64,000 nucleotides of DNA from Lachnospiraceae bacterium G41 (GTDB lineage: Bacteria; Bacillota; Clostridia; Lachnospirales; Lachnospiraceae), in contig FNEU01000010.1 in assembly GCA_900100245.1 (NCBI GenBank), forward strand, positions 1-64,000. Direction: 5' to 3'. The notes below the pieces were generated by a model. That model was given only the letters and a program-made list of their open reading frames with translations. It was not told where the DNA came from and did not search any database. Positions 6,001 through 25,482 of the stretch are shown here, piece after piece. The position numbers and the translations under genes are program-made. Within the stretch, counting starts at the first letter, position 1, and every line of letters begins with the position of its first letter.

Positions 6001-9000
6001 CGGAGGTTCAGCTCAATTAAATAATCTTTCAACGGATTCATTTGAGGTCGAAGAAAAATCAGCAAATGTAACTGTTACAGACAGTAATACATCAACGCAG
6101 TCATTTGTATCGGTAGGTTTGATGCCGATGACTTTCGACACATTATATCCCGGACAGGTATATTACGGAACTTATGTTCATCGCATGCCTGAAGCAGTTA
6201 AAGAGTCCGAAGATGATCAAAAGGAATACTATTTCCGATTAATTGATGCGATGGCTGAATGTGTTTCCGGAGAAGATTTGGGAGTGACGCTTTCGATTTC
6301 TCCTATAGGCGGTCATTATCACAGAGAATTTTATGGATCACCGGAGAATTATTACGGAAAACCACAAACAGTAGGTGACCCTGTAGACATCACGTCAGGT
6401 TTATATCAGGACGAAGTTGCAGCGTTGACCATTGTTGGAGGTCAGGAGTTATCATATGATTTATCATACTCATCAGGCGCTGTACAAAATGCCGGTGAAA
6501 TCGGGTATGGATGGAACAGTCAGTATGAAATGCATCTTGAACAGCGTAATGGTATGGTATGGCTTTATACAAGCCCTAATGGAGTTGTATCATTCGTAAA
6601 AACAGATGCTTTGAATGGAGTATATTACGGAAAAGTCGTTAATGGAAGAATTATATTAGATACAAGCAGAGATTATTCAATTGGCGAATATACGGCTATT
6701 ACTCCCGGATTAGAGTCATTTAAACTCGTCAGAAATCAGGATTTGACTTATACATTATATTATCCCGGCGGAGTTATTAAGAACTTCTATTCAGACGGAA
6801 AGCTTTCACAGATAGTTTCTTCTGAAAAACAGACTATATCAATATCTTATAATGGCAATAATACTGTCATTAAAGAAGATATTTCAGGCAAAACCATTAC
6901 TGCTGTTCATAACGGAAGTGGTTTAGTTTCTGAATTACATGACAGCGCAGGAAGAGTTACTTTTCTTTCTTATGATGAAAACTCAAATCTCGCAGCTATA
7001 GTTCGTCCTGATAATACAACACTTAGATATGCATATGATGAAAAACACAGAATAGTCCAGGCCTCGAATGCCAACGGAGTATTTGTGACCAACGAATATG
7101 ATGATAATAATCGTGTGGTTAATCAGAAAGATGCACTTGGCTACACAATGCTCATGTCTTATGAGGACTACGGCAATTATAGCAAGAAAGTAACTGTTAT
7201 TCAGGCTAATGGTGCAAAAGAAACCGTTATGGTTAATTCCAGAAACGCTGTTACATATGAAACAAATGCTAATAATGTTTCAGCATCATATATATATGAT
7301 TTAAATGGCAATCTCCGTTTTGAGAAAGATCCTTATAACAATGTTATAGAGAGAGAATATGATCAGAATAATAATATGGTCAAAGTGACAGACAAGGGCC
7401 GTATTGTTACCACTTTATCCTATGATTCTCGCGGAAATGTTACGGGTGTATTCGGGTCGGATGGAGCGTCAGCATATTATTCGTATGATTTAAACAATCA
7501 TCTTGTATCAACTACAGATGCATCCGGATTGACTACAAGTTATACCTATAATTCAAGCGGACAAATGACATCCGAAACCAGAGGCAGTCAGGGAAGCATC
7601 AATTATTCATACACAAACGGAATGCTTACATCCATTACAGATTTAATGGGTAATGTTATTCGTATGGAATATGATGCATGCGGTAATATTGTAAAGACAA
7701 CGGATGCCAAAGGAAATTCAACAAGTTACACATATGACGCAGTAGGAAGAAAACTTAGCGAAACCGATGCATTAGGAAATACAACATATTACACATATGA
7801 TTGCAACGGTAACTGCACATCTGTAAAAGATGCGTTAGGCAATGTTACTAAATATTCATATGATGCGATGAGTCATCTTGTAAAAGAAATATATGCGGAT
7901 GGCAGTGTAGTAGAGTATTCATATGATTCAGCCGGAAACGTTATAAAGAAAACAATGCCTGGCGGAATAACAATTAGTTATTCATATGATTTGTGTGACA
8001 ACCTGCTAAAGGTATCCTCGTCTGACGGAACAAGCATTTCATACACCTATGACTCACTTGGTCAAAAGACTAGTGAAACCGATGAATTTGGCAGAACCAC
8101 CCAATATGAATACAATCCTAACGGAACTATTCACAAAACAACCTTTGCAGATGGATCATGGGTTCTTAATACGTATAGTCAGAGATGGAAATGTATCGCT
8201 AAATTATATTCAGATGGATCTTCAGAAGCGTTCTCTTATGATAAAAAAGGAAATGTAACCAGCTTTACAGATGCAGTAGGAAATACAAATTACAATGAGT
8301 ATGATTCATTTGGCAGACTGATTAAAGAAACAGATGCTAAGGGCAATGTGACCCAATATACATATGATGCTAACGGTAACTGTACATCCAAGACGGATGC
8401 TACAGGAAGAACAGCATATATGGTTTATGATGCTGTCAATCAGCTCGTAGAAGCATATATGAAAGATTCCAAGGGTGAAAAATATTCGGTTAAGTATGAA
8501 TATGATGCCTTAGGAAGAGTAATAGCAACTACTGATGAAGAAGGCTATACTACAAAGGTTACCTATGATGCACTTGGTAATGTTAAGAGCACCATTGATG
8601 CTAATGGTGTTAAAACAGATATTACGACTTACGATTCAGTAGGAAAAGTAACAACTGTTAAGGATTCAGACGGTAGTGTTACCAATTACACATATGATGC
8701 AAGAGGAAATATCCTTTCTGCAATCCAGAACCTTTCAAGTATTAATAAGTCAAGTGTTTATACATACGACGAAAAGGGCAGAGTAGTATCTGTAAAAGAA
8801 AACAATGCTCTTACAACGAAGGTTTCTTACGATGTTAAAGGAAATGTAGCGTCCGTCACAGATGCAAACGGAGGAACCACACAATATAAGTATGATAATC
8901 TTGACAGACTCACGCAGGTTATCTCTACTTTAGGAAATAAAACATCCTATGAGTATAACGGAGCAGGTCTTGTATCCAAATTGACGAATGCAAGAGGTCA

Positions 9001-12062: not shown

Positions 12063-12749
12063 TTATAAATGAAACCTCTTCTTAAACTCCGCCAGTACAG
12101 TCCTTCCTTTAAACACGATCAAACCGAAGAAGGCCAGAACATTTATTACAAGGCAGATAGACCATGTAAGAGGGGGCTTGTCGCGGTAGAAGATAAGAAG
12201 TGCTATCCACGGCGCTACGCCCACCAGAATGTTTAAAAACATGTATATTAACGAGTAGTCGGTAAAATGCTTGTCTATAAATGAAAGAATGAAATTAGCC
12301 ACTAAATTTCCGCTGCAGAGGATGGGTACGATGTATCCGGCGGTGATGCCAAGATACGGCAGATCCCAGGCAAGTGTGATGAAGGCTTCGGAGAAGAAGC
12401 TTAGAACCACTATCGCAATCATCGTAAAGAACATCGCTTTTAGGAGGTTGTAATGCTTCCTGATGATAAATTCGATGATCCAGCCGATTACCAAAAGCCA
12501 TGCGACAACCAGAGGGCTCCACGATGGATGCTCTGTTTCTATGAAAAGGAAATCCAGCGCAAGGTTAATGATAATTAAAGCGAAGAAGACAAACATGACT
12601 ATCTTAAAAGCCTTGCGTCTTAACCTTGTTTTTATCTCGATTTTAGGGATATAATCCCTTTCGCCCTCGCCGGTTAAAAGATTCTGGCAGAGAGGACATT
12701 TCTCAAGATTTCCACCGATATTTATTTTGCAGTGCGGACACATTTTCAT
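12063..12749 (-). CDS. DUF6320-type zinc-ribbon membrane protein
   Basis: This 228-residue protein begins with a four-cysteine zinc ribbon (CPHC at about 4-7 and CPLC at about 18-21). A charged linker and about six hydrophobic membrane segments (about 47-215) follow, and the C-terminus is basic. The layout matches the DUF6320 family, which has no assigned biochemical role. It is the last gene of a minus-strand operon after the acyltransferase (81-nt gap), esterase and TetR regulator. I therefore infer a membrane function tied to acylated products of that operon, without evidence for a specific reaction. An alternative ATG lies two codons downstream. Transcription ends at the shared terminator 11963-12006. 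Confidence 0.75.
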   Translation of the reverse strand: MKMCPHCKINIGGNLEKCPLCQNLLTGEGERDYIPKIEIKTRLRRKAFKIVMFVFFALIIINLALDFLFIETEHPSWSPLVVAWLLVIGWIIEFIIRKHYNLLKAMFFTMIAIVVLSFFSEAFITLAWDLPYLGITAGYIVPILCSGNLVANFILSFIDKHFTDYSLIYMFLNILVGVAPWIALLIFYRDKPPLTWSICLVINVLAFFGLIVFKGRTVLAEFKKRFHL

Positions 12750-12830
12750 ATTAGTAAAACCTTTATCAAAGATGATTCAATAATCATTCTTTTCAGCACC
12801 TATATAATTTATGGGTACTTCTTTTATAAT

Positions 12831-14087
12831 CTAATCAACAACCTCATTCGAATACAGAGTCATTTCAATACCTTCGTCGGAAAGACTCTTAATAAAATCC
12901 CTGATAACCTGAGTGCTCTTGTATGCGCTGCTGATGCCGAGCACGAAATCATCTTTGTAGGTCGAGCAGACCACGAACATTGTGCTTGTGGAGCAGTAGG
13001 CATTGTAGGAAAGAATATAATCCGAAAGTTCTTCGGGAACTTTTAAAATACCAAGGTTTGAAACCACGGCCGTAACCTTTTTGGCCTTTTGGTGTGTACC
13101 GATTTTAACCACCGGGTTTTTAAGGAAAAGAGGAGCCAGTCTTATAAAAAGAATTTTCTCCAGCTTTTCGTAATCATACATTCGGGCTTCAACCATTTCG
13201 GGAGTCAGTTCATTTTTAAGATCAGCGTTAAACTGTTCGGCCACACTTTCAAAGGTATCCGTGCTCTTAAAAAGATGGCTTACATTAACCGAATTGAAGA
13301 AGTTTCTCGATGTATCCGAAGGATAGTAATTCCTCAGATTAACAGGCATACTGATTGTGACAGGCTGGATTCTGTTTAGAACCGGCATATCTTTGTAGAT
13401 GCTCATCATAAGCTTCGTGGCAATGTAGGATGTCAGGGAAACATGATTTTCCTTGGCTTTTTTAATAACATCGCCCACATTCATATGAACTTCCATAAAA
13501 CGAAGCTGATTGTAAGGGAGCTTCTGACCTTTTATATGATAAGCGTTTCTGAATTTTTTCTTTTTTACGTTCTTGTTTTTCTTCGCATAATAATGTCTGA
13601 AGCTGTCCTGCGATAGAGCGGCCTCCGAAGCGCCCGATGTCATGGGAATATCGGGAATTTCGTTCGGATGTTTTAACTTAAGATAGTGATAAACAATCAG
13701 ATTTAAGAACTCAATCGCGCCGTTTCCGTCGGCGATGGCGTGGAAGAAATCAAGATTGATTCTGTTGTAATGATATGTTACATGGTAGTGAAGCTTGCCG
13801 AAGGTTTTCTGGTCGTAAAGCATAGGGCAGGGTCTCTCGTTTTCGATAGTTACGACAGGCTCGTCGTCCGTCGGCTCCATGTAATGCCAAAAGAGACCGC
13901 GAAGAATCGTCACCTGATACTGGGGGCGTTCCTTGGCGGCATTCTTTACTGCAGCGCCTAATATATCTTCTTCAATGTCTTCGTTTAAAGTACAGGTAAT
14001 GCGAAAAGATCTGGTGTCGCGATCGTTCGCTGCCGCCAGAAAGACTTTTGCCACATTATCCATTCTGTACCATGTTTCGTGAGCCAT
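12831..14087 (-). CDS. HxxxD acyltransferase (alcohol acetyltransferase/condensation-domain superfamily)
   Basis: This 418-residue cytosolic protein belongs to the CoA/carrier-dependent acyltransferase superfamily (alcohol acetyltransferase, PapA5, NRPS condensation domains). The diagnostic HxxxDG motif is at His116-Asp120 (HAIADG), and the length is typical. The family transfers an acyl group from a CoA or carrier-protein thioester to a hydroxyl or amine. The actual donor and acceptor cannot be read from the sequence. A strong AAAGGAGAG ribosome-binding site precedes the ATG. It lies 27 nt after the esterase gene in the tetR operon and divergent from an ACP/ketosynthase operon, which suggests it could offload or decorate the product of that system. 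Confidence 0.8.
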   Translation of the reverse strand: MAHETWYRMDNVAKVFLAAANDRDTRSFRITCTLNEDIEEDILGAAVKNAAKERPQYQVTILRGLFWHYMEPTDDEPVVTIENERPCPMLYDQKTFGKLHYHVTYHYNRINLDFFHAIADGNGAIEFLNLIVYHYLKLKHPNEIPDIPMTSGASEAALSQDSFRHYYAKKNKNVKKKKFRNAYHIKGQKLPYNQLRFMEVHMNVGDVIKKAKENHVSLTSYIATKLMMSIYKDMPVLNRIQPVTISMPVNLRNYYPSDTSRNFFNSVNVSHLFKSTDTFESVAEQFNADLKNELTPEMVEARMYDYEKLEKILFIRLAPLFLKNPVVKIGTHQKAKKVTAVVSNLGILKVPEELSDYILSYNAYCSTSTMFVVCSTYKDDFVLGISSAYKSTQVIRDFIKSLSDEGIEMTLYSNEVVD

Positions 14088-14114
14088 TTTGGGTGGACTC
14101 TCCTTTAAACTTAG

Positions 14115-15104
14115 TTAGTATAATTCTTCAATAAATTTGCTGATTGATTCCATCGCACGAAGGGCCTTTTTAAAAGGCATCATCTGGAATACATGCCATG
14201 CGTCCTCGTACTCTTCGAGAGTAACGGTTACGGTGTCTTTTATGAGCTTTTCGTACAGATTGTATGCATCGGATTTTAAGATTTCGTTTGAGCCGACCTG
14301 GATTAAGAAAGGCGGGAAGCCTTCAAAATCCGCGAAGAGAGGGCTGTATTTGGGATCTGCATAGTTAAAGCCGTAATCCTCTATCTTAAAATCTTTGATA
14401 TTTTCGTTGAATTTATCGTTCAAACCTACGAAGGAAAAACGCGAAGTCTGGATGTATTCCTTGGTAAGTATCGGATCCTGATCCTTACATGTTTTATAGG
14501 ATTCGCCGGACATGGTCATATCTGTCCAGGGACTCATCAAAACAATGCCTTTGGGAAGAAGCCTTCCCTGAGCTTTTAATTTGAGTGCAAGTTCGAGTGC
14601 GAGGTTTCCGCCTGCCGAATCGCCGATTAGTACGACTTCTCTGGCACCGAAACCAAGCTGCATGAGATAGTTCCAAATTGTCAGAGCATCTTCGATGGCT
14701 GCCGGATAGGGGTTTTCGGGAGCGAGACGGTATTCGAATGACATTACTTCCATACCCGTGTTTAAGGCAAGTTTTGCGGCCAGAACTCTTGCATACTTTA
14801 AGCTGCCGCAGGTGTAACCGCCGCCGTGACAATACATAATGATATGTCTTTTATCATGTTTGTATTCGGGTCTGACCCATTCGCAGGGGATGCCCTTCAC
14901 CGTAAAATCATCGGTTTCAATGTTGTTTGAAAGGGTGGATAATGTCGCAAACAAATCCTGACCGGCACGCTGTTTTTTGATGTCGTCGAGCGAAATTGAA
15001 TCACCTGACGAAGATACGGAGTGAATGGATTTTACCGCCTTCATCAAAGGCGACATCTGATTGTCATCGTTATCCTGTTTTACAAATCTGATAAGTCTGC
15101 TCAT
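14115..15104 (-). CDS. Alpha/beta hydrolase, hormone-sensitive-lipase family esterase
   Basis: This 329-residue protein has the HSL-family features in order: the HGGG oxyanion-hole motif at 93-96, the nucleophile elbow GDSAGG with Ser163, and the catalytic histidine in DAWHVF (His304). At the usual acid position the sequence reads GSNEIL, so Glu274 stands where Asp is common; Asp279 is an alternative. There is no signal peptide, so the protein is likely cytosolic. The family hydrolyses short to medium acyl esters. It lies 27 nt before the acyltransferase and 48 nt after the TetR gene, forming a regulator-esterase-acyltransferase-membrane protein operon. Confidence 0.88.
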   Translation of the reverse strand: MSRLIRFVKQDNDDNQMSPLMKAVKSIHSVSSSGDSISLDDIKKQRAGQDLFATLSTLSNNIETDDFTVKGIPCEWVRPEYKHDKRHIIMYCHGGGYTCGSLKYARVLAAKLALNTGMEVMSFEYRLAPENPYPAAIEDALTIWNYLMQLGFGAREVVLIGDSAGGNLALELALKLKAQGRLLPKGIVLMSPWTDMTMSGESYKTCKDQDPILTKEYIQTSRFSFVGLNDKFNENIKDFKIEDYGFNYADPKYSPLFADFEGFPPFLIQVGSNEILKSDAYNLYEKLIKDTVTVTLEEYEDAWHVFQMMPFKKALRAMESISKFIEELY

Positions 15105-15152
15105 TTATATCCCTCATAAAATACACAACACTTAATTATATCACTTTTAAAC

Positions 15153-15731
15153 CTATTTTGCCACATTGGTAAGCATGAGCTCTACCACGCCGTCGAGCAT
15201 TTCGATACCGTGCTCGAGAGTGTCCACGGGGTCGTCGCTTGATTTGCCCCTTATCCACTCAACCGTGGTTTCCGCGAATATTTTTGAAAAGAAATATGCG
15301 AGTCTCTTTTTTTCTTTTTCGCTGACCTTTTTGCCGGTAGGCACAATCTTTGTCTCATAAAGATTGTCTATATTCTGATAAGCCATTTTCGATACGACAT
15401 CCACGATATAATCGCCGAACGCGTCACGTCCCATTGAATTAAAAAGATTTCTTATAAATATTTCGTTCTTTCGTGCATAGGCTCCGACGATACGAAGATT
15501 TGATTTCCAGGACTCGGGAGATGAAAAATCCATGTTGACGAAAAGCTTTGCAGCCTTGGCGTAAATGATTTCCTCCTTTAATGCGTAGAGGTCCTGATAA
15601 TAGTAATAAAACGTATTTCTGTTAATCCCGCAGTTGTCGCAAACCTGCTTTATGGTGATTTTATCCATGGGAATACTTTGGGCAAGTTCGACAAAGCTGT
15701 CCATTATGGCTTTTTTAGTAAAATTTGACAT
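15153..15731 (-). CDS. TetR/AcrR-family transcriptional regulator
   Basis: This 192-residue protein has an N-terminal TetR helix-turn-helix (about residues 10-55, with the motif ITIKQVCDNCGINRNTFYYYY). The helical C-terminal ligand domain resembles the DhaS-like TetR_C group. An AAAGGAAG ribosome-binding site precedes the ATG. It is the first gene of the esterase/acyltransferase operon and is divergent from the flavoprotein-ACP-ketosynthase operon. By the usual logic of divergent TetR genes it probably represses itself and possibly one or both operons from the shared 219-bp region. The ligand is unknown; an acyl-CoA or the pathway product is a reasonable guess only. Confidence 0.9.
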   Translation of the reverse strand: MSNFTKKAIMDSFVELAQSIPMDKITIKQVCDNCGINRNTFYYYYQDLYALKEEIIYAKAAKLFVNMDFSSPESWKSNLRIVGAYARKNEIFIRNLFNSMGRDAFGDYIVDVVSKMAYQNIDNLYETKIVPTGKKVSEKEKKRLAYFFSKIFAETTVEWIRGKSSDDPVDTLEHGIEMLDGVVELMLTNVAK

Positions 15732-15950
15732 ATTTTCTTCCTTTCAATCCTCATAAAAGATTCGCCGCGCCTTTTATTTTAGGCAAATCCGACGTTTTTA
15801 GGACAAAAAATAAAAAGTTAATATTAAGTTAATATTTCATTTAGGCATTCAGGGGGTGTTTGTCTGAATTTCATACATATAATACCAAATGTTTATTGAA
15901 AATGGAATCATTTTACGAAAAAATAATCACGATAATAGGGAGATAGTGTT
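15732..15950. promoter_or_regulatory. Divergent regulatory region with candidate operators
   Basis: This 219-bp AT-rich region separates the tetR and flavoprotein operons. On the plus strand a TATAAT is visible at 15878-15883, without a clear -35. Two candidate protein-binding sites are present: a direct repeat of TTAATATT around 15816-15838, and an inverted repeat ATTCAG-N11-CTGAAT around 15847-15869, just upstream of the TATAAT. Either could bind the TetR protein. This is inferred from position and symmetry. Confidence 0.5.
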
Positions 15951-16703
15951 ATGAAGGTTTTACTCATAAACGGAAGCATGAGAGGAAATCAAAGTTCGTC
16001 CCTCAAGGTGGCCGAAGCTTTCGTTCGCGGAATGGTATCGGAAAACGGCGAAGAGAATACCGAAGTCGTTAAGATCAATTTACGCGAGAAGAATATCGAG
16101 CATTGCTACGGCTGCTTTTGCTGTTGGAAGTTAAATAAGGGCGAATGCATCATAAGAGACGATATGGACGAGATCAGAAAGCTCGTACTTGAGTCGGATG
16201 TGATTATTGAAAGTTTTCCTCTTTATTTTTTTGGGCTTCCGTCTAAAATGAAAGCCTTTATGGACAGAATGATTAATTTCGTGTCGGAATACAGAGCCGT
16301 TAACGGGGATGAGGCTACGGGAAGATTTTTACACGAGATGAGATATCCGGAATTAATGAATAAAAAACTTGTTCTTGTTTCCGCGTGCGGATATGAGGAA
16401 ACCGTGGACTGTTACGATGCGGTAATCGACCAGTTCGACAAGATCTGCGGTCACGACAATTACACGAGAATATTCGTACCCCAGGGCGGTATGCTCGCGG
16501 AGAAGACATTCGAGAACAAAATTGCAAGGTACATGATTAAATTTGAGGAAGCCGGAAAGGAATTCGTAAAGTGCAAAAAACTTTCGAAGGAGACGGAAGA
16601 GAAGTTGAGCGTTCCGATGTTGGGACACAATACTTTTGCACAGGCCATAAATCTTAACTGGGATGAACCCGGTGTAGGCCCTTACGGAAAGGTTGTTAAG
16701 TGA
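15951..16703 (+). CDS. Flavodoxin-fold NAD(P)H-dependent oxidoreductase
   Basis: This 250-residue protein starts with the flavodoxin-like FMN-binding pattern MKVLLINGSMRGNQSSS. A cysteine-rich stretch (CYGCFCCW...GECIIRDD, about residues 45-65) and the motif SFPLYFFGLPSKMKAFMDR follow. This is the NADPH-dependent FMN reductase / iron-sulfur flavoprotein-like family. The cysteine spacing resembles, but does not prove, an Fe-S site. It is the first gene of the plus-strand operon and overlaps the next gene by one base (TGATG). A redox step linked to the ACP/ketosynthase genes is plausible. The family is broad, so the substrate cannot be assigned. Confidence 0.8.
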   Translation: MKVLLINGSMRGNQSSSLKVAEAFVRGMVSENGEENTEVVKINLREKNIEHCYGCFCCWKLNKGECIIRDDMDEIRKLVLESDVIIESFPLYFFGLPSKMKAFMDRMINFVSEYRAVNGDEATGRFLHEMRYPELMNKKLVLVSACGYEETVDCYDAVIDQFDKICGHDNYTRIFVPQGGMLAEKTFENKIARYMIKFEEAGKEFVKCKKLSKETEEKLSVPMLGHNTFAQAINLNWDEPGVGPYGKVVK

Positions 16704-17419
16704 TGTTAAAAAAATTAAATTGGGCATTCGAGGCCGTAATAATATTCTTTCTATATGTAGGAACGTGGCCCGTGCTTCGAATACTTTATCCGAGAAGAAT
16801 CATCTGGGAAGATAAAAAAGCATCAACGGCAGTAATGAAAAAACCCTGCGTAATATATTCAAACCATACGGGTTATTCAGACGGTTTGTTCGCATTTGAT
16901 ATTTTACGAAAGTTTTATCCTTACACATTCATCGGCAAAGACTGGTACGAAAAGAACAAACTTTTCCACAGACTGCTAATGCACAGAAGATATATTCCTC
17001 TCGACAGAGAACAAATGGATACATCGTGGCTGATGAAGGGAAAGAAAGTAATAGATGACGGATACGGCATTTTCTTCTTCCCCGAAGGACATACCTCAAA
17101 GGACGGTTTGTTACTTGAATTCCAGCCGGGATTTTTGATGCTCGCAAAACAGAGCAACATTCCGCTTGTTCCGATTTGCCTTGACAGAAAGGTAGATTTC
17201 TTCAAGCCCGTCAGAGTAATCATCGGAAAGCCTATTTATATCGACTTTAAAAAAGAACCCGGCAGACCTTCGGTGGTTCTTAAAAAATATGCCGAGGTTT
17301 GCAAAGATGCAATCATCGACCTAAAAGACAGATACGGCAATCCTAAATTTGTAACCGACGATGTAATCAAATACAGAGAAAAGGTAGCCGAAAAAGAGAA
17401 CAGCGAGACTGCTGTATAA
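16703..17419 (+). CDS. PlsC-like lysophospholipid/glycerol acyltransferase
   Basis: This protein of about 238 residues belongs to the LPLAT/PlsC family, which acylates a glycerophosphate or other hydroxyl from acyl-ACP or acyl-CoA. The catalytic NHxxxxD motif reads NHTGYSDG (about residues 51-58), and the block-III-like motif FFPEGHTSKDG is at about 123-133. A hydrophobic N-terminal segment (about 8-28) suggests membrane association. The ATG at 16703 shares its A with the upstream TGA, which is preferable to the GTG at 16700. Because an ACP gene follows 86 nt later, the donor may be the acyl-ACP made by this operon. Ordinary phosphatidic-acid synthesis is the alternative. Confidence 0.85.
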   Translation: MLKKLNWAFEAVIIFFLYVGTWPVLRILYPRRIIWEDKKASTAVMKKPCVIYSNHTGYSDGLFAFDILRKFYPYTFIGKDWYEKNKLFHRLLMHRRYIPLDREQMDTSWLMKGKKVIDDGYGIFFFPEGHTSKDGLLLEFQPGFLMLAKQSNIPLVPICLDRKVDFFKPVRVIIGKPIYIDFKKEPGRPSVVLKKYAEVCKDAIIDLKDRYGNPKFVTDDVIKYREKVAEKENSETAV

Positions 17420-17505
17420 GTAAGTTTATTAACCGAGGGGAACTCCGGAGGTTTATAAAATAAATAAAAAACAAATTATATTTTTTATTCAAAAGGAGAG
17501 TAAAA

Positions 17506-17754
17506 ATGAACGAGAAAGAACTCGCAATTGCTGCAAGAATCAAAGAGATGTTGTCAGAGAATTTAAGAATTCCCGCAGAAGAACTTGATTACGAAATCCC
17601 TCTTTTCGGTGACGGAATCGGTCTTGATTCAGTTGATTCACTCGAAATCATCGCTTGCATCGACTCTGAATACGGTGTAGCTATGACAGGTGTTGCAAAA
17701 GAGAACTTCTACAACATTACCAGCTTAACCAAATACGTAGTAGCTAACATGTAA
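17506..17754 (+). CDS. Acyl carrier protein
   Basis: This 82-residue acidic helical protein has the phosphopantetheine attachment motif GLDSVDSLEI; the serine (about residue 46) carries the 4'-phosphopantetheine arm. The motif departs from the near-universal DSLD of primary fatty-acid ACPs and resembles carriers of specialised systems, although that distinction is weak alone. A strong AAAGGAGAG ribosome-binding site and an AT-rich leader precede it. It lies directly upstream of the fused ketosynthase and is separated from it by a stable hairpin. It is expected to shuttle the growing chain between the KS-CLF, FabG and FabZ proteins. Confidence 0.93.
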   Translation: MNEKELAIAARIKEMLSENLRIPAEELDYEIPLFGDGIGLDSVDSLEIIACIDSEYGVAMTGVAKENFYNITSLTKYVVANM

Positions 17755-17762
17755 TTATTTTA

Positions 17763-17790
17763 TGATGCCTTCCCTTTTGGGAGGGCATCA
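17763..17790 (+). promoter_or_regulatory. Stable intercistronic hairpin between ACP and ketosynthase genes
   Basis: A 12-bp stem (17763-17774 with 17779-17790, one G-U pair) closes a TTTT loop. No T-tract follows, so it is unlikely to be a full terminator. It may protect the ACP transcript end or lower read-through, giving more ACP than downstream enzyme. Confidence 0.75.
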
Positions 17791-17817
17791 ACTAAAGCGG
17801 TAAAGGAGATTATCCAA

Positions 17818-20199
17818 ATGAGTAAGAACATCAATGCCAGATGCGTTGTTACAGGCTTAGGAATGATCAATGCCATCGGTAAAAATGTTGAAGAATGCTG
17901 GGAGAATGCCCTTAAAGGTACACCCGGAATAGATAAAACCAGAAGCGTAAATTCAGACGACTGTTACGCACATCTCGGAGCTGAAGTAAAAGATTCGGAC
18001 ATCGAGATGAACGATAAGGTAGACAGAGTTTCAATGCTTTGCCTTCAGGCTTCAAAGGAAGCACTTAATGATGCAGGTATTACAGATGCAAACGTAGATG
18101 CAGCACGTTTCGGCGTTATTATGGGAAGCTGTGTCGGCGGCGTCGTAAGTATTGAAAACTACATCGAAAAAGGCGAAAAGACAGAAGATATTAATAAGAT
18201 GACAATCGCATCCATCGCAAACCACGTTGCAAACATGGCAGGCGCAAAGGGTGTCGTTACTAATATAGGCAATGCGTGCGCAGCCAGTACAATGAGCGTT
18301 GCATATGCATGCGAACTGATTAGAGCAGGTGTCGGCGATGTATTTATCGCCGGCGGTGCAGATGCTTTTGCAAGCGTTCCTTTCGCAGGATTTACCGCAC
18401 TTCATGCTCTTTCAGAAAACCCCTGCTCACCTTTTAACCATTCAAACGGTATTACATTAGGTGAAGGTGCAGGCGCAATCATCGTTGAATCTTATGAGCA
18501 TGCTAAGGCCAGAGGCGCAAAGATTTACTGCGATGTTTTATCAGCAGGTATTTCATCCGATGCTCATCACATCACAGCTCCCAGACCTGACGGAATCGGC
18601 CAGATGTATGCAATCAGAAGAGCACTTGATAAATCAGGTGTTGATAAGAAAGACCTTGATTACATCAATGCACACGGAACAGGAACAGCCAAGAACGACG
18701 AAGCAGAGTTCCTTTCAATTCATACAATCTTTGATGATGCAAACGATCACTTAAGCGTTTCATCCACTAAGGCAATGGTTGGTCACTGCCTCGGTGCAGC
18801 AGGCGCAATCGAAGCAGTTTATGCAATAAGAGCATTAACGGATAACAAGGTTCCGCCCACAATCGGTTACACGGAAGAAGATCTTGAAGCCTTAAAAGAG
18901 AAGGCAGGCAAGATTGACTTTATGCCCAACGAAATGAAGGCTAAAGAACTCAACTATGTAATGAGCAACTCCTTCGCATTCGGCGGAAGCAATGCAAGTA
19001 TCATCTTCGCAAAGAATGAAGGCAAGATGTCTGAGACAGAGAACAACGAGGACATCTACATTACAGGTATGGGTATTGTTTCTCCCATCGGTAACGGCAT
19101 CGAAAACTATATTGAAAAAGTTAAAGCCGGCGAGACAATTACTTCCAACAATCTTTCTTCAGAACTTGGCAAAGAAGATTTTGACAAATATGATATCAAA
19201 CTTGCTTTCTACAGAAAACTCGACAAGCTTTCAACAATGCAGGTTGTATCGGGTATCGAGGCAATCAACAATGCAGGCTTTACATTCAACGATGAAAACG
19301 CCGAAGACTTCGGTATGATAATCGGTACAGGCGACGGCCCTCTGACAACCGTTTACGAGTTCCAGGATCATATTTCCAAGGAAGGCACACAGAACGGTTC
19401 GGCATTCAACTTCCCGAACACCGTTTACAATGCAGCAGGCGGATATCTTTCAATCAAGACCGGAATGAGAGGCTACAATGTTACAATCACAAACGGCAGC
19501 CAGTCAGGTCTTTCATCAATCTGCTATGCAGCTAACGAAATCAGACAGAACAGAACAGTTGCAATGCTTGCTTCGGGTACTGACGAAAACAGCGCTGTAA
19601 TGAACAAGCTTTATACACAGTTAGGATTTGTCTCTGATGCAAAGACAGATATTTACGGAAATGCAAATGCAATGAATCTTTCCGACGGTTCCGTAACAAT
19701 CGCACTTGAAAGCGCATCACAGGCAGCATCACATTCTGCCAAGAAGTATGCTAAGGTTGCCGGCTTCGCACAGACACACGAAGGTGTTGAATACGGTACT
19801 CTTGCAGGCTCCGACGAAGGTCTTGCAAACGCCATAAAAGAAGCGTGCGCTGATGCGGGAATCAGTGTAGATAAGATTGATGCGGTATTCGGTTTCGGCA
19901 ACGGTATAAACGAAGTAGATACACTTGAGAAGAATGTATATTCAAATGTATTCGGCAAAGAAATCGCAGTTATCAACGTAAAAGATTATGTAGGTGAAGC
20001 AAGAGCGGCAGCAGCTACACTTGCGGCAGCACATGCAGCATTGACCCTGTCAGGCGAACTCGGCGATTCACAGGATGCATACTTCATCGGTGGCGGTAAT
20101 GTTCGTAAGGACAAAGTCGATACCAAGAACTTTGAATATGTTATTGCCACATCATACGGCGTAGGCGGATCCTACAGCGCAGTAGTACTTCAGAAATAA
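17818..20199 (+). CDS. Fused beta-ketoacyl-ACP synthase: active KS plus catalytically dead KS (CLF-like)
   Basis: This 793-residue protein contains two thiolase-fold ketosynthase units in tandem. The first (about 1-405) is FabF-like with the full Cys-His-His triad: Cys154 in NACAAS, His286 in NAHGTGT and His323 in VGHCLGAAG. The second (about 413-793) begins again with the family start ITGMGIVSPIG, but every catalytic position is changed. Cys becomes Ser561 (NGSQSG), the first His becomes Phe693 (FGFGNG) and the second becomes Glu727 (VGEARA). This is the arrangement of a ketosynthase and its chain-length factor, normally two subunits of type II polyketide and aryl-polyene systems, here on one chain. 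It sits between ACP and FabG in a co-directional operon. It should extend acyl-ACP with malonyl-ACP; product length and saturation are not known. Confidence 0.92.
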   Translation: MSKNINARCVVTGLGMINAIGKNVEECWENALKGTPGIDKTRSVNSDDCYAHLGAEVKDSDIEMNDKVDRVSMLCLQASKEALNDAGITDANVDAARFGVIMGSCVGGVVSIENYIEKGEKTEDINKMTIASIANHVANMAGAKGVVTNIGNACAASTMSVAYACELIRAGVGDVFIAGGADAFASVPFAGFTALHALSENPCSPFNHSNGITLGEGAGAIIVESYEHAKARGAKIYCDVLSAGISSDAHHITAPRPDGIGQMYAIRRALDKSGVDKKDLDYINAHGTGTAKNDEAEFLSIHTIFDDANDHLSVSSTKAMVGHCLGAAGAIEAVYAIRALTDNKVPPTIGYTEEDLEALKEKAGKIDFMPNEMKAKELNYVMSNSFAFGGSNASIIFAKNEGKMSETENNEDIYITGMGIVSPIGNGIENYIEKVKAGETITSNNLSSELGKEDFDKYDIKLAFYRKLDKLSTMQVVSGIEAINNAGFTFNDENAEDFGMIIGTGDGPLTTVYEFQDHISKEGTQNGSAFNFPNTVYNAAGGYLSIKTGMRGYNVTITNGSQSGLSSICYAANEIRQNRTVAMLASGTDENSAVMNKLYTQLGFVSDAKTDIYGNANAMNLSDGSVTIALESASQAASHSAKKYAKVAGFAQTHEGVEYGTLAGSDEGLANAIKEACADAGISVDKIDAVFGFGNGINEVDTLEKNVYSNVFGKEIAVINVKDYVGEARAAAATLAAAHAALTLSGELGDSQDAYFIGGGNVRKDKVDTKNFEYVIATSYGVGGSYSAVVLQK

Positions 20200-20211
20200 A
20201 GGGGAAATACC

Positions 20212-20955
20212 ATGGATAACGAAAAGAAAATTGCTCTTGTAACCGGCGCAAGCCGCGGTATCGGAAGGGCATGTGCCATAGCACTCGGAAAGAAAGGCTA
20301 TACGGTAATCATCAACTACAATTCAAACGAAGATGCGGCTAACGAAGTTAAAAGCATCATCGAAGGTTTTGGCAGCGAAGCCGACACATATAAGGCGAAC
20401 GTTGCAAACCTTGATGAAGTAAAGCCCATGTTTCGTGAGATTACCAAAAAGTACGGCAAGATTGACGTGCTTGTAAACAACGCAGGCATCGTAAAAGACG
20501 AATACGTACTTATGATGACACCCGATACGATTGATAAGTGTCTCGACCTTAACATCAAGGGTTATATGTACTGCTCACAGCAGGCAGCCCTTAAGATGTT
20601 CTCAAAGAAAAAAGGCTGCATCATCAATGTATCTTCGGTAAGCTCCAAGCTTGCCGTAGCAGGCCAGAGCGTATACTCGGCTACAAAGGGTGCCGTTAAC
20701 TCAATGACAGCTACAATGGCCAAGGAACTTGCTCCTTACGGCATCAGAGTAAATGCGGTAGCTCCCGGATTTATCGGAACGGATATGGTTGAAAAGCTTC
20801 CCGAAGAGAAGAAGACAGAGTACCTTGATACAATTCCGATGAAGAGATTCGGTACACCCGAAGAAGTCGGCGAAGTTGTTGCAATGCTTGCAAGCGACGA
20901 AGCCGCATACATCACAGGCCAGGTGCTTGTAATCGACGGCGGATTAAGCCTGTAA
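20212..20955 (+). CDS. fabG: 3-oxoacyl-ACP reductase
   Basis: This 247-residue short-chain dehydrogenase/reductase reduces 3-oxoacyl-ACP to 3-hydroxyacyl-ACP with NADPH. The nucleotide-binding glycine motif GASRGIG is at about 13-19 and NNAGI at about 88-92. The catalytic Ser142, Tyr155 and Lys159 (YSATK) are all present, and the length is standard for FabG. The gene starts 12 nt after the ketosynthase fusion, so co-translation is likely. In this cluster it provides the keto-reduction step after each condensation. Confidence 0.93.
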   Translation: MDNEKKIALVTGASRGIGRACAIALGKKGYTVIINYNSNEDAANEVKSIIEGFGSEADTYKANVANLDEVKPMFREITKKYGKIDVLVNNAGIVKDEYVLMMTPDTIDKCLDLNIKGYMYCSQQAALKMFSKKKGCIINVSSVSSKLAVAGQSVYSATKGAVNSMTATMAKELAPYGIRVNAVAPGFIGTDMVEKLPEEKKTEYLDTIPMKRFGTPEEVGEVVAMLASDEAAYITGQVLVIDGGLSL

Positions 20956-20985
20956 AGAAAGAAAATTCCGGAGGTTTCTTTTATG

Positions 20986-21426
20986 ATGAATATCAACGAA
21001 GTTCAGAAAAGAATTAAACAGCGTCCTCCTTTTCAGATGATTGAAAAGGTTGTTGAAATAAGAGGCGGCGAATATGCTAAGGGAATCAAGAATGTTTCAA
21101 TTAATGAGCCTTATTTTATGGGCCATTTTCCCGATGCTCCGATAATGCCGGGCGTACTTATCGTTGAGGCATGTGCACAGCTTTGTTCTGTAACAATCGA
21201 GAGCGACGGAACGGACGACAGCAAGATTTATGTGCTTCTTAAATGTGACGAGTTTAAGTTCGTAAAACCTGTTCTTCCCGGAGATACACTTACGATAGAA
21301 GTTACAAAAGACGGCGGCGGAGCGGGACTTGTAAAATTTGACTGCAAGGCATTTGTTGACGGCGAGATTAGAGCTAAAGGAAAGCTCGCATTCTGTGCCG
21401 TTGATAAGGCTAATATATACGGATAA
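20986..21426 (+). CDS. fabZ: 3-hydroxyacyl-ACP dehydratase, FabZ type
   Basis: This 146-residue hot-dog-fold dehydratase converts 3-hydroxyacyl-ACP to trans-2-enoyl-ACP. The active-site pair is intact: His in GHFPDAPIMPG (about residue 47) and Glu in VEACAQ (about 61). Two consecutive ATGs (20983, 20986) follow a GGAGG site; the second is best spaced. It lies 30 nt after fabG. With no enoyl reductase in the cluster, the enoyl product would either go to a reductase encoded elsewhere or remain unsaturated. Confidence 0.93.
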   Translation: MNINEVQKRIKQRPPFQMIEKVVEIRGGEYAKGIKNVSINEPYFMGHFPDAPIMPGVLIVEACAQLCSVTIESDGTDDSKIYVLLKCDEFKFVKPVLPGDTLTIEVTKDGGGAGLVKFDCKAFVDGEIRAKGKLAFCAVDKANIYG

Positions 21427-21482
21427 GTTAGGAATAAAGCTTAAATCATTTTACTAGTTTTTTATACGAGAGGAGATTAAAG

Positions 21483-22439
21483 ATGAGCAAACGAGTATTT
21501 ATGTTTCCCGGACAGGGATCGCAGTACATCGGAATGGGAAAGGAAATCTACGAGACTTTTCCCAAAGCAAAGGAAGTTTTTGACAAAGCTTCCGCAATCA
21601 CAGGGCTTGACGTAGCCGGAATGTGTTTTGAAGAAAACGAAAAAATTAATATTACAGAGTATACGCAGATTTGTATGCTGACAGTCGAAGCGGCAATTTT
21701 CGCAGTACTTGAAGAAAAGGGCATTACATACGATCTGACTGCAGGATTATCCTTAGGCGAATATGGTGCGCTTATTGCATCGGGTGCAATGAGTATGGAA
21801 GATGCTTTTGCAATCGTTCGTAAAAGAGGTATCTATATGCAGAACGCAGTTCCCGAAGGTGGCGGAATGAGCGCAGTTATCGGACTTGATGCTTCCGTAA
21901 TAGAGGATGCTTGTGCTGAGGTAATGGCAAATAAGGATATGTACGATAAGGGGGACAGCTCTTTACCTTTTACAGTATCCGTAGCGAACTACAACAACCC
22001 CAAGCAGTCCGTTATCACAGGAAGAAAAGATGCGGTTCAGGCAGCAGGAAAGATTCTTGAAGAAAAGGGCGCATTAAAAGTTGTTGAACTTAATGTATCA
22101 GGACCTTTCCATTCAGCTCTTTTAGAAGGTGCCGGAGAGCAGCTCGCAGAGGCCTTAAAAGATATTGAATTAAGTGATATCAAAGTTCCTTACATCGCAA
22201 ACGTAACCGCAGAATATGTAACCGATAAAGGCGATATCAAAGAGCTTTTAAAGAAGCAGGTATCCTCATCGGTTAAATGGCAGCAGTCACTCGAACTTAT
22301 GATAAAAGACGGTGTGGACGAATTCATCGAAATCGGTCCCGGACACACACTTACAGGCTTCGTAAAGAAGATTGACCGCGGACTTAAGACAGTGAATATA
22401 GATACACTCGAAGATTTAAACAAGTTTATTGAAGCGTAA
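21483..22439 (+). CDS. fabD: Malonyl-CoA:ACP transacylase
   Basis: This 318-residue acyltransferase loads malonyl groups from CoA onto ACP. It has the N-terminal GQGSQ motif, the nucleophile elbow GLSLGEYGAL with Ser90, and the catalytic histidine in GPFHSALL (about His210). Length and architecture are those of FabD. The gene follows fabZ by 56 nt with a GAGGAG ribosome-binding site. It supplies extender units to the ACP and KS-CLF system. Confidence 0.94.
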   Translation: MSKRVFMFPGQGSQYIGMGKEIYETFPKAKEVFDKASAITGLDVAGMCFEENEKINITEYTQICMLTVEAAIFAVLEEKGITYDLTAGLSLGEYGALIASGAMSMEDAFAIVRKRGIYMQNAVPEGGGMSAVIGLDASVIEDACAEVMANKDMYDKGDSSLPFTVSVANYNNPKQSVITGRKDAVQAAGKILEEKGALKVVELNVSGPFHSALLEGAGEQLAEALKDIELSDIKVPYIANVTAEYVTDKGDIKELLKKQVSSSVKWQQSLELMIKDGVDEFIEIGPGHTLTGFVKKIDRGLKTVNIDTLEDLNKFIEA

Positions 22440-22513
22440 TTTTATATAATTCTACTTTTATTTTGACTGAAATTATGAGACTAGAAGATTAGAAAATTAA
22501 AGGGGATTATCAT

Positions 22514-24211
22514 ATGGGTTTATTTGATTTTAACAAAAAAGCAACCGCTAAAAAAGCAGACATAGTTGTTTCTCCGGAATCAATTATATGTCCTGTATGT
22601 AAAAAAGAAATATTTAAAGAAGAAGCCAAGCGCATGAAGTATGTCTGCCCTGAATGTAATTACTACTTCAGAGTAAGAGCCAACAACCGTATCCGTATGG
22701 TTGTTGATGACGGTTCATTCGAAGCATGGTTTGATGATATTCGTACCGAAAATCCGCTCAATTTTCCTGATTACGAAGGAAAGATTGAAGACACCATGGA
22801 AAAGACCAAGCTTTCCGAAGGTGTTACAGTCGGAAGCGCGACTCTTCGCGGTGAAAGAATTGTCATCGGTGTAATTGACTCGAGATTCCTCATGGGAAGT
22901 ATGGGTCATGTTGTGGGCGAGAGAATTACTCTTGCGGTTGAAAAAGCAACGGAAGAAAAATTACCTGTTATTCTTTTCTGCTGTTCGGGCGGTGCGAGAA
23001 TGCAGGAAGGTATCGTATCCTTAATGCAGATGGCCAAAACAAGTGCCGCACTTAAGAAACATTCGGATGCGGGTCTTTTATACATTTCCGTTTTAACAGA
23101 TCCGACCACAGGAGGTGTTACCGCATCGTTTGCAATGCTCGGAGACATTATCCTCGCAGAGCCCAAAGCCCTCATTGGATTTGCCGGTCCCAGAGTAATC
23201 GAGCAGACCATCGGAGAGAAACTTCCCGAAGGTTTCCAGAGATCGGAATTTCAGCTTGAGCACGGGTTTGTTGATGCGATAGTCGAGAGAGATAATTTAA
23301 GAAATGTGCTTGCCAATCTGGTTAAGATGCACATTCGCAAAGAAGGCTACGCAAACTTCGATCCGCAGTTTGACAATGTAAGATACGACGCAACCGAACT
23401 CATGAAAGAGAGAGCTGCGAAGAGCAAACCTTTAGGAGTATGGGATAAGGTTTGTGCTGCAAGACAGCTTTTCAGACTTCAGTCCGAAGATTATATAAAT
23501 ACGATATTTGATGAGTTTATAGAACTTCACGGTGACAGATATTTCAGGGACGATCCCGCAATAATGGGTGGTATCGGATATCTTGACGGCCAGGCAGTAA
23601 CCGTAATCGGTGTCAACAAGGGTAAGAGCCTTGAAGACTGCAAGAAACACAATTACGGCATGCCTTCACCCGAAGGATACAGAAAAGCTCTGCGTCTGAT
23701 GAAGCAGGCAGAAAAATTCCACAGACCGGTTATTACTTTTGTAAATACATCAGGTGCATATCCCGGACTTAAAGCCGAAGAAAACGGACAGGGCGAAGCA
23801 ATCGCAAGAAACCTCTTTGAAATGGCAGGTTTGAAAACTCCGATTCTTACCATTATGATTGGAGAAGGCGGAAGCGGCGGTGCACTTGCACTTGCGGTAG
23901 GCAACGAAGTGTGGATGGAAGAGAATGCAACTTATTCGATTCTTTCACCCGAAGGCTTTGCATCCATTCTCTGGAAGGATTCGAGCCGTTCCACGGAAGC
24001 TGCGGAAGTCATGAGAATCACTGCTCACGATATGAAGGAATTAAAAGTAATCGAGGACATTATTCCTGAATACGGAATGGCCGATGAAGATGCGCTTACA
24101 TCCATTTCATCTTACATGAAAGGTCATATGAAAGAATTCCTTAAAAAGATGAATGAAAAGAGTATCGATCAAATAGTTGAGGAAAGATATACAAGATTCA
24201 GAAAATTCTGA
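22514..24211 (+). CDS. accDA: Fused acetyl-CoA carboxylase carboxyltransferase, beta-alpha (AccD-AccA)
   Basis: This 565-residue protein joins the two carboxyltransferase subunits that are separate in most bacteria. The AccD half (about 1-290) begins with its zinc ribbon (Cys26, Cys29, Cys45, Cys48) and continues with the crotonase-fold motifs [10 protein letters not shown] and TDPTTGG. The AccA half (about 295-565) contains [20 protein letters not shown] and [12 protein letters not shown]. It transfers the carboxyl group from carboxybiotin to acetyl-CoA, giving malonyl-CoA. Biotin carboxylase and BCCP are not in the window and must be encoded elsewhere. It is the last gene of the operon, 74 nt after fabD and before an intrinsic terminator. 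Confidence 0.93.
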
Positions 24212-24219
24212 TATAATAC

Positions 24220-24250
24220 AAAGTGTCTGATGTTTCAGGCACTTTTATTT
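24220..24250 (+). terminator. Intrinsic terminator after accDA
   Basis: An 11-bp stem with one G-U pair (24220-24230 with 24235-24245) and a four-base TGTT loop is followed by a T-rich tail. It closes the ACP/ketosynthase operon. Confidence 0.8.
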
Positions 24251-24254
24251 TTCG

Positions 24255-24283
24255 GTGCCCGGCTCACGAAGTGTGCCTGGCTC
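24255..24283. repeat. Dispersed GTGCCYGGCTC tandem motif, copy A
   Basis: Two near-identical 11-mers (GTGCCCGGCTC and GTGCCTGGCTC) are separated by 7 nt, directly after the accDA terminator. Related copies lie at 37129-37197, 55210-55238 and 62342-62370. Confidence 0.7.
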
Positions 24284-24309
24284 TGATTGATGTTAGAAGA
24301 GGTGCGGAT

Positions 24310-25482
24310 ATGAAAAAAGGAATGATTTATGTACTTGCGGCTTTAAGTTCTTTTATGCTTGCAAGCTGTACGTTAACAGGTACAGATGAGGTTGTAACTC
24401 TTGAGCCTGCGACAACTGTAGCAGACCCCGTAAAACCTTCAAATGACGGGGATACGAATGTTTCAAAACCTGAAACGGATATTGATGTAACAAATCCCGG
24501 CGATGATACAACCGGAGAGACTGATATTAAAACTAATAATGTTTTACCTGTAAGCTTTGTGATAGAAAGAGAAAATACCGAAAACGCAAGCTTTTATGAG
24601 CATTTAAAAGCTTTGGACGAAAAAGGAAATGTTATATGGCAGTTTGATACCGATGAAATAATGGTCGGCCAGTATGAAAGCACCGTTAATGTGGGTCTTA
24701 AGGATAACGGTTATTATTATATCGCAGACTATGTACTTTATCTGTTAGATCCTTATACAGGTGAAATAATCTGGCAAACAGATTGCGGAACAGGCGCATA
24801 TGATTTCGACGAAGAAGGAAATTTCTATTCAACGGGAAATGAAGGACCTTCTCTCAGAGTAATCGATCCCAACGGTAAAACGCTTCATAAATACGGTTTA
24901 AAAGATACCGATGGCGATTTAAGTTTGTTTTACTGGCCATATGACCTTGATTATGAAGACGGACTGGTTTATATCACTTGTGAGAGTATGCCCAAACTCC
25001 TTGTAGTAGATCCCGAAACAGGTGATGCATGGGCTGAAAAATTTGACGGTAATGCGGACTGGAGCGATCTTTATAATATTGACTGGCAGATGACAGCATG
25101 GGAATGCAGCGACGGCAGAAGCAACCAGACGGATGGCGGAACTTTTGAAATCGAATTTATGGAGGGCAATTATGTATCCATAAAATATACCGATTCCGAC
25201 GGAAATGTTCAGGATTTTGATTATATGTCGATTATTTTCAGACCAATCGACCTTTATGACGGTGTAAGAGATGATTATTACGGAATGTGGACCGGAGAAT
25301 GCGCAGAATGGAATGATCCCTATAATTCTTTCGCTTTCCAGATGACCGAACCCGATACTCTTGAATTAATCTGGTTTAACTATGACGATGAAGGAAATCC
25401 GGGAGATTATTACACGATAGTAAAATTTTTCAATGCAGAACTCTTAAAATACTATCAGGATAAGTTGAATTCAAACAAATAA
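24310..25482 (+). CDS. Lipoprotein with PQQ-like beta-propeller segment
   Basis: This 390-residue protein starts at the ATG at 24310, where a lipoprotein signal peptide begins (MKKGMIYVLAALSS, lipobox LASC). The longer frame from 24223 would bury this signal. After a Thr/Asp-rich linker come repeats in which a hydrophobic strand ends in a phrase such as GNVIWQFDTD or GEIIWQTDCG. These are typical of PQQ-type beta-propeller blades. The C-terminal 140 residues are Trp/Tyr/Asp-rich with no recognised domain. It is probably anchored on the outer face of the membrane. A binding or scaffold role is a guess; no enzyme motif is visible. Confidence 0.8.
   Translation: MKKGMIYVLAALSSFMLASCTLTGTDEVVTLEPATTVADPVKPSNDGDTNVSKPETDIDVTNPGDDTTGETDIKTNNVLPVSFVIERENTENASFYEHLKALDEKGNVIWQFDTDEIMVGQYESTVNVGLKDNGYYYIADYVLYLLDPYTGEIIWQTDCGTGAYDFDEEGNFYSTGNEGPSLRVIDPNGKTLHKYGLKDTDGDLSLFYWPYDLDYEDGLVYITCESMPKLLVVDPETGDAWAEKFDGNADWSDLYNIDWQMTAWECSDGRSNQTDGGTFEIEFMEGNYVSIKYTDSDGNVQDFDYMSIIFRPIDLYDGVRDDYYGMWTGECAEWNDPYNSFAFQMTEPDTLELIWFNYDDEGNPGDYYTIVKFFNAELLKYYQDKLNSNK

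Follow-up and report, generated by a model that had tools for sequence, protein, structure and literature searches.

We found that a single gene of Lachnospiraceae bacterium G41 encodes, in one chain, a ketosynthase (KS) and a chain-length-factor-like (CLF) partner, and that this single-chain KS-CLF stands in a dissociated, type II-like operon. The window analysed here is a 64,000-nucleotide stretch (contig FNEU01000010.1, positions 1 to 64,000 of the forward strand), in which the gene occupies positions 17818-20199. An active KS fused to an inactive CLF-like partner had been proposed in the initial annotation, and this is borne out by the catalytic triad conserved in one half and by the match of the predicted fold to a KS-CLF didomain. 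With moderate confidence, we consider the protein to be the core of a dissociated (type II-like) reducing synthase, the product of which would be a lipid-destined and probably unsaturated acyl chain.

The open reading frame starts with ATG and encodes 793 amino acids in one uninterrupted frame. Residues 1-404 (17818-19029) form the KS half and residues 405-793 (19030-20199) the CLF-like half, both on the forward strand, and each half matched ketoacyl synthase Pfam domains. The full Cys-His-His triad ascribed to the first half is indeed present, that is, residues 154, 286 and 323 read C, H and H (codons at 18277-18279, 18673-18675 and 18784-18786). In a 54-row MAFFT alignment, which contains 24 halves from 12 single-chain proteins and 30 single ketosynthase-type proteins, the corresponding columns of the second half are occupied by S561, F693 and E727 (19498-19500, 19894-19896 and 19996-19998), and HMMER alignments to FabF chains in the PDB gave the same placement. 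This is the triad loss originally described; an intact triad in the second half had been named as the result that would speak against it, and the alignment shows Ser, Phe and Glu instead. In a 17-row alignment of the window protein and 16 of the 20 fetched loci, C154, H286, H323, F693 and E727 do not vary. Position 561 differs among the relatives, being S, A or N in these rows and, in the 54-row alignment, A in Lachnospira eligens and M in genome G343. V106 of the first half aligns with the Ile of the GSGIGG motif in the E. coli FabF row, the known gate residue, and the gate column of the second half is acidic in the seven Lachnospiraceae rows (Glu in L. eligens, otherwise Asp).

The 20 fetched loci are all from Lachnospiraceae, with full-length identities of 67-98% to the window protein. 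Nearly all of them are metagenome-assembled, many derived from samples of the rumen or of other animal guts, the lone isolate being Eubacterium sp. MSJ-21 (L016). Since the frame is covered from residue 1 or 4 to residue 791 or 793 in 18 of the 20 loci, it is the result of neither chance nor assembly error; the partial copies are L020, which ends at residue 374 at a contig end, and L025, which comprises 40 residues. The second half is less conserved than the first, the identities of 16 relatives to the window protein being 59-97% and 75-99.8%, respectively.

The AlphaFold model, built from 17 sequences, is of moderate quality (mean pLDDT 74, pTM 0.81), with two of the five models near 51 and 124 residues under pLDDT 50, including 106-128, 186-214 and 512-538. 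Its best PDB match is 6RIW, the KS-CLF of PfaC, which spans both halves (E 3.5e-44, TMq 0.77, rmsd 7.9 A, 18% identity), and the FabF entries among the PDB matches listed cover one half each (TMq 0.41-0.43). The structure prediction, suggested earlier as a check, thus points to a KS-CLF didomain fold across the whole chain.

In the tree of the 54 rows, which is free of aromatic KS-alpha/CLF, Iga-type and PfaC sequences, the first halves of the 12 single-chain proteins form one clade together with ApeO (99/97), away from FabF, and the second halves form another (99/99); the tree has one long terminal branch, 14 rows flagged for unusual composition and several weakly supported deep forks. Grouping with FabF was rejected by the AU test both for the Lachnospiraceae first halves (p-AU 0.0008) and for the second halves (p-AU 0.0004); these FabF groupings alone were named beforehand, and the other topologies were chosen after the tree was seen. 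The NCBIfam scores are 479 bits for the whole protein, 365 for the first half and 126.7 for the second, versus a fabF cut-off of 493.75 bits. By these comparisons, neither half is a primary FabF; a grouping of both halves within primary FabF had been named earlier as a result that would speak against the proposal. As to the suggested kinship with aryl polyene synthases, ApeO groups with the first halves, but ApeC forms a long branch of its own, apart from the second halves. A single clade of all 12 first halves was not rejected (p 0.13), which makes one old fusion behind all 12 single-chain proteins possible.

The KS-CLF gene belongs to an operon that runs away from a divergent TetR-type regulator gene (15153-15731, reverse strand, PF14278). 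In order, and all on the forward strand, the operon encodes a flavodoxin-fold FMN oxidoreductase (15951-16703, PF02525/PF03358), a PlsC-like acyltransferase (16700-17419, PF01553), an 82-aa acyl carrier protein (ACP; 17506-17754, PP-binding PF00550), the KS-CLF, a FabG-like ketoreductase (20212-20955, below the FabG equivalog cut-offs), a FabZ-like dehydratase (20983-21426, NF000582 over cut-off), the malonyl-CoA:ACP transacylase FabD (21483-22439, TIGR00128 over cut-off) and a fused AccD-AccA acetyl-CoA carboxyltransferase (AccDA; 22514-24211, Pfam/NCBIfam). The operon functions are malonyl supply, loading, condensation, ketoreduction, dehydration and acyl transfer, and its core is kept in the related loci and in L. 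eligens. According to blast labels, the PlsC-like gene is present in each of the 17 related loci that include the upstream stretch and the flavodoxin gene in 16 of them, being missing in L023 and split over two frames in L011. An ACP is labelled beside the KS-CLF in most related loci, L016 excepted; FabD and AccDA do not follow FabZ in L015 and L016, and FabZ, FabD and AccDA are not labelled in L023. Possible accessory genes on the reverse strand encode an alpha/beta hydrolase of the HSL family (14115-15104, PF07859), an AATase-like acyltransferase (12831-14087, PF07247, E 1.3e-7) and a DUF6320 protein (12063-12749, PF19845). The hydrolase is labelled in the closest loci, with a 28% identical frame in L. 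eligens, and the AATase-like gene in the closest loci only.

The spacer between the TetR gene and the operon contains an operator-like block (15814-15884; AAAGTTAAYATTAAGTTAA and a TTTAGGCATT half-site), which is kept among 10 aligned close loci. In a scan of 23 loci, the motif was present in the window and L045 and absent from L033, L035, L043, L046, L014-L016, L019, L022-L024, L026 and L097; since it is missing from the distant carriers scanned, it is restricted to close relatives. An operator shared with the FabK operon of the same genome (L029, see below) was considered and dropped, because the motif was not found there. A palindrome, ATTAACCGTTCGGTTAAT, was noticed by eye upstream of the ACP gene of that FabK operon, and it is unlike the motif of the KS-CLF operon. 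The promoter and terminator scan gave results no better than shuffles.

Elsewhere the window is ordinary chromosome, the 30 proteins scanned including ATP synthase, HrcA/HSP70/DnaJ and others, of which several matched no Pfam family. No secondary-metabolite genes were seen among the 27 window proteins scanned downstream of 25525, which are housekeeping or have no assigned family. Upstream, a 3843-aa frame (23-11554) contains RHS repeats, fn3/PKD and pretoxin-HINT (PT-HINT) domains, by which it looks like a polymorphic-toxin-type surface protein; the RHS repeats and the PT-HINT domain led us to drop it as a candidate NRPS/PKS partner.

In the mechanism that we propose for the reducing synthase, malonyl-CoA would be made by AccDA, and FabD would load the operon's ACP with malonyl. 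The KS half would catalyse the decarboxylative condensation, and the dead half may pack against it in the way a second monomer does in the usual KS dimer, completing the acyl tunnel. FabG would then reduce and FabZ dehydrate the beta-carbon. Since no enoyl reductase was recognised in the operon by Pfam/NCBIfam matches of its proteins, the chain should keep its double bonds, as a polyene or unsaturated acyl, and it would be handed to a lipid by the PlsC-like acyltransferase (PlsX stands beside the L. eligens operon). Likewise, no frame in the KS-CLF loci carries a FabK blast label. The conserved flavodoxin-fold protein could be a candidate for an enoyl reductase.

The fused protein was found in 14 of the 19 genomes of the genus, the own genome included. 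Their completeness is 69-100% (99.7% for the own genome), and since many of them are incomplete, single absences weigh little, the weight being carried by the pattern and by the 100% complete genomes G004 and G014. Among 392 sampled genomes of the order, at least five full-length single chains occur among the matches listed, namely those of G000 (the own genome), G014, G343 (58%), G026 (33%) and G115 (31%), a lower bound, with two candidates scored per genome. In the own genome, the one FabD match and the one true copy of AccA/AccD are both within the KS-CLF operon. FabD is on the KS-CLF contig in 12 of the 14 carriers of the genus, cut by the contig end in G013; in the remaining two, G007 and G015, a contig break falls at this place, and the pieces are compatible with each other. 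Strong AccA matches number one per carrier, except for two in G016. In G343, which is 99% complete, the fused protein is the only ketosynthase detected; the third match of the KS search there (25 bits over 40 positions, in a 392-aa frame) was taken for a thiolase. Because no FabD or AccDA was detected elsewhere in the genome, and no other ketosynthase in G343, the KS-CLF operon seems tied into the core malonyl and acyl supply. The statement in the initial annotation that such fusions are 'not part of ordinary fatty-acid synthesis' is, as worded, not supported by these two observations.

It is conceivable, though we put it on the less probable side, that the operon is an aryl-polyene-like or other highly reducing type II polyketide cluster, the polyene of which would be a specialised envelope lipid apart from the membrane lipid supply. 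This estimate refers to the specialised role, the chemistry overlapping that of the reducing synthase. The grouping of ApeO with the first halves fits such a cluster, and the E. coli aryl polyene cluster likewise has KS, CLF, ACPs, FabG, a dehydratase and a lysophospholipid acyltransferase. However, ApeC is a half-size CLF of 240 aa that is not found with the second halves, the only FabD and AccDA detected are in the KS-CLF operon, and no aryl starter ligase, methyltransferase, glycosyltransferase or MMPL exporter was found among the Pfam-scanned window proteins (12063-25482 and most of the larger frames elsewhere). A stand-alone aryl polyene cluster was dropped, since neither starter nor export genes occur among the window proteins scanned.

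We find it rather unlikely that the operon is the ordinary fatty acid synthase of this organism or its relatives, in which the KS-CLF replaces FabF and FabH, priming would proceed through malonyl-ACP decarboxylation and an enoyl reductase, e.g., the flavodoxin-fold protein, has escaped recognition. The sole detected FabD and AccDA in the operon are in line with this, as are the PlsC-like gene (PlsX in L. eligens) that accompanies it, the ordinary chromosome in the remainder of the window and the absence of any FabH match in the own genome; FabH-type matches were found in 4 of the 14 carriers (G004, G009, G014 and G016). So is the lack of any other detected ketosynthase in G343 and likewise in G115 (91% complete), as well as in four of the 14 genus carriers (G002, G008, G015 and G017, 76-89% complete). 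On the other hand, no enoyl reductase was recognised in the operon, and the own genome retains another operon, ACP-FabK-FabG-FabF-FabZ-AMP ligase, which has neither FabD nor carboxylase genes (contig C9, locus L029, 7827-13160). The best NCBIfam match of its AMP ligase is MbcS, below cut-off, and this MbcS-like ligase, together with the absence of FabH from the matches in the genome and of FabD/Acc beside the operon, suggests that the FabK operon is primed by activated short branched acids. FabK exceeds 400 bits in 9 of the 14 carriers and was not found in G002, G004, G008, G014 and G017. Moreover, neither KS nor FabD was matched in the genus members G011 and G012, where the AccA-like matches were all weak, and at least 12 genomes of the family, 98-100% complete, gave no match to the KS-CLF query at 1e-30 (two candidates scored per genome), a threshold at which this query normally also detects FabF. 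Therefore, lack of fatty acid synthesis seems to be tolerated in this group, and many members of the family may be fatty acid auxotrophs.

Separately, KS, FabH-like and AMP-ligase-like genes lie together in G004, G009 and G014 (L053, L054 and L056), as judged for G004 and G009 by blast labels and frame order only; the G014 cluster adds epimerase-family and metallo-beta-lactamase-fold proteins. The cluster of these three genomes was considered as a hidden fatty acid synthase and rejected, being in G014 of a FabH/KS/AMP-ligase/epimerase type with no enoyl reductase recognised among the seven proteins scanned.

The carriers appear to keep AccDA without a biotin carboxylase, which poses a clear and testable question on the malonyl-CoA supply of these anaerobes. 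AccC exceeds the cut-off in three of the 19 genus genomes (G001, G005 and G018), which have a FabK-FabD-FabG-FabF-FabZ-AccC-AccDA type set and no KS-CLF; it was found in none of the 14 KS-CLF carriers of the genus, in which ATP-grasp-type matches reach 60 bits at most. The own genome has one clear biotin carrier, a second match being weak (22.5 bits). The carrier is encoded in a decarboxylase/transcarboxylase operon (contig C18, locus L067, 5397-10718), together with a 12S-like carboxyltransferase, a lipoprotein-like frame, an OadB-type sodium-pump subunit and an OadA/5S-like subunit, and we infer that carboxybiotin may reach AccDA from this carrier. It is unlikely, in our opinion, that in this lineage the single-chain KS-CLF has become the core of lipid acyl synthesis, replacing FabF/FabH with priming by malonyl-ACP decarboxylation, and that its malonyl-CoA comes from oxaloacetate-to-acetyl-CoA transcarboxylation, in which the carboxyl group would pass without an ATP-dependent biotin carboxylase to AccDA from the carrier encoded in the oxaloacetate/methylmalonyl-CoA decarboxylase operon. 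In G343 the place of AccDA is taken by a 513-aa PF01039 carboxyltransferase, and in G115 frames for a biotin carrier, a biotin carboxylase and AccDA-like proteins lie downstream of the KS-CLF. Since G115 has a biotin carboxylase, the missing AccC characterises this genus and not the single-chain KS-CLF in general.

Finally, a tandem FabF duplication with a decaying second copy is very improbable and was dropped: fabF is still the best NCBIfam match of the second half (126.7 bits against the cut-off of 493.75), but both halves are open in frame in the 18 covering loci, F693 and E727 are invariant, and first and second halves as one clade, that is, duplication within the lineage, are rejected (p-AU 0.0001).

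The single-chain KS-CLF, which we favour as the core of a reducing synthase, is a natural one-gene version of what are two proteins in type II systems, so that the pairing is fixed, and CLF function can be probed by exchanging or mutating only its dead half. With such a protein, the distinction between polyketide-type synthesis and housekeeping lipid synthesis becomes less sharp in bacteria of the rumen and gut, among them L. eligens. No description of a stand-alone single-chain KS-CLF was recognised among the top-ranked open-access literature matches, and a KS-CLF catalogue of 2023, in the part of its text available, paired KS and CLF ORFs within 2 kb (PMC10132072).

The KS-CLF fusion itself is not new, being already known from PfaC of PUFA synthases, which an available excerpt describes as a KS-CLF didomain in a multidomain synthase (PMC12895367). 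PfaC (6RIW) resembles the window protein in having KS and CLF in one chain and is the best structural match across both halves; however, here the chain ends after the CLF (residue 793), and the other functions belong to separate single-function proteins. KS-alpha/KS-beta pairs are two subunits, whereas the window has one 793-aa frame. In highly reducing type II polyketide synthases, separate KS-CLF, KR and DH proteins make polyenes, according to the accessible section of one report (PMC10698177). The KS-CLF, KR and DH set of the ishigamide system (Iga11-Iga12), with an ACP, also occurs in the window operon; Iga11-Iga12 is a two-protein heterodimer, whereas the window has one chain and an operon that includes FabD and AccDA. 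The PDB entry 6KXD is presumably that of Iga11-Iga12. The aryl polyene pair ApeO-ApeC is similar in that ApeO falls in the first-half clade and a PlsC-type gene is present in the E. coli cluster, but ApeC is encoded by a separate half-size gene, and genes for starter activation and export were not seen among the window proteins scanned.

The same fusion is found in proteins of Priestia megaterium pBM500 and Streptomyces plasmids, the C halves of which fall in the clade of the window's second half, but these are 32-33% identical and belong to different clusters. A glycine-cleavage-T-like gene adjoins the distant single-chain KS-CLF in P. megaterium (L027, 10919-14442) and in G115 (L098, 5243-8727), a neighbourhood that is apparently another cluster type. 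On the Streptomyces plasmids (L028, 11929-18412; L099, 11322-17446), the single-chain KS-CLF is accompanied by a KSIII gene and two more KS-type genes, one of them without the active Cys. This combination may serve the use of a special starter unit. The operon of L. eligens ATCC 27750, whose KS-CLF (WP_041688922) is on a 627-kb replicon, encodes ACP, KS-CLF, FabG, FabZ, FabD, AccD, a frame labelled AccA, flavodoxin and PlsX. It differs from the window operon in that PlsX lies downstream, no PlsC-like gene is labelled and AccD and AccA are separate, and it shares with it the same operon core and a KS-CLF of 55% identity over the whole chain.
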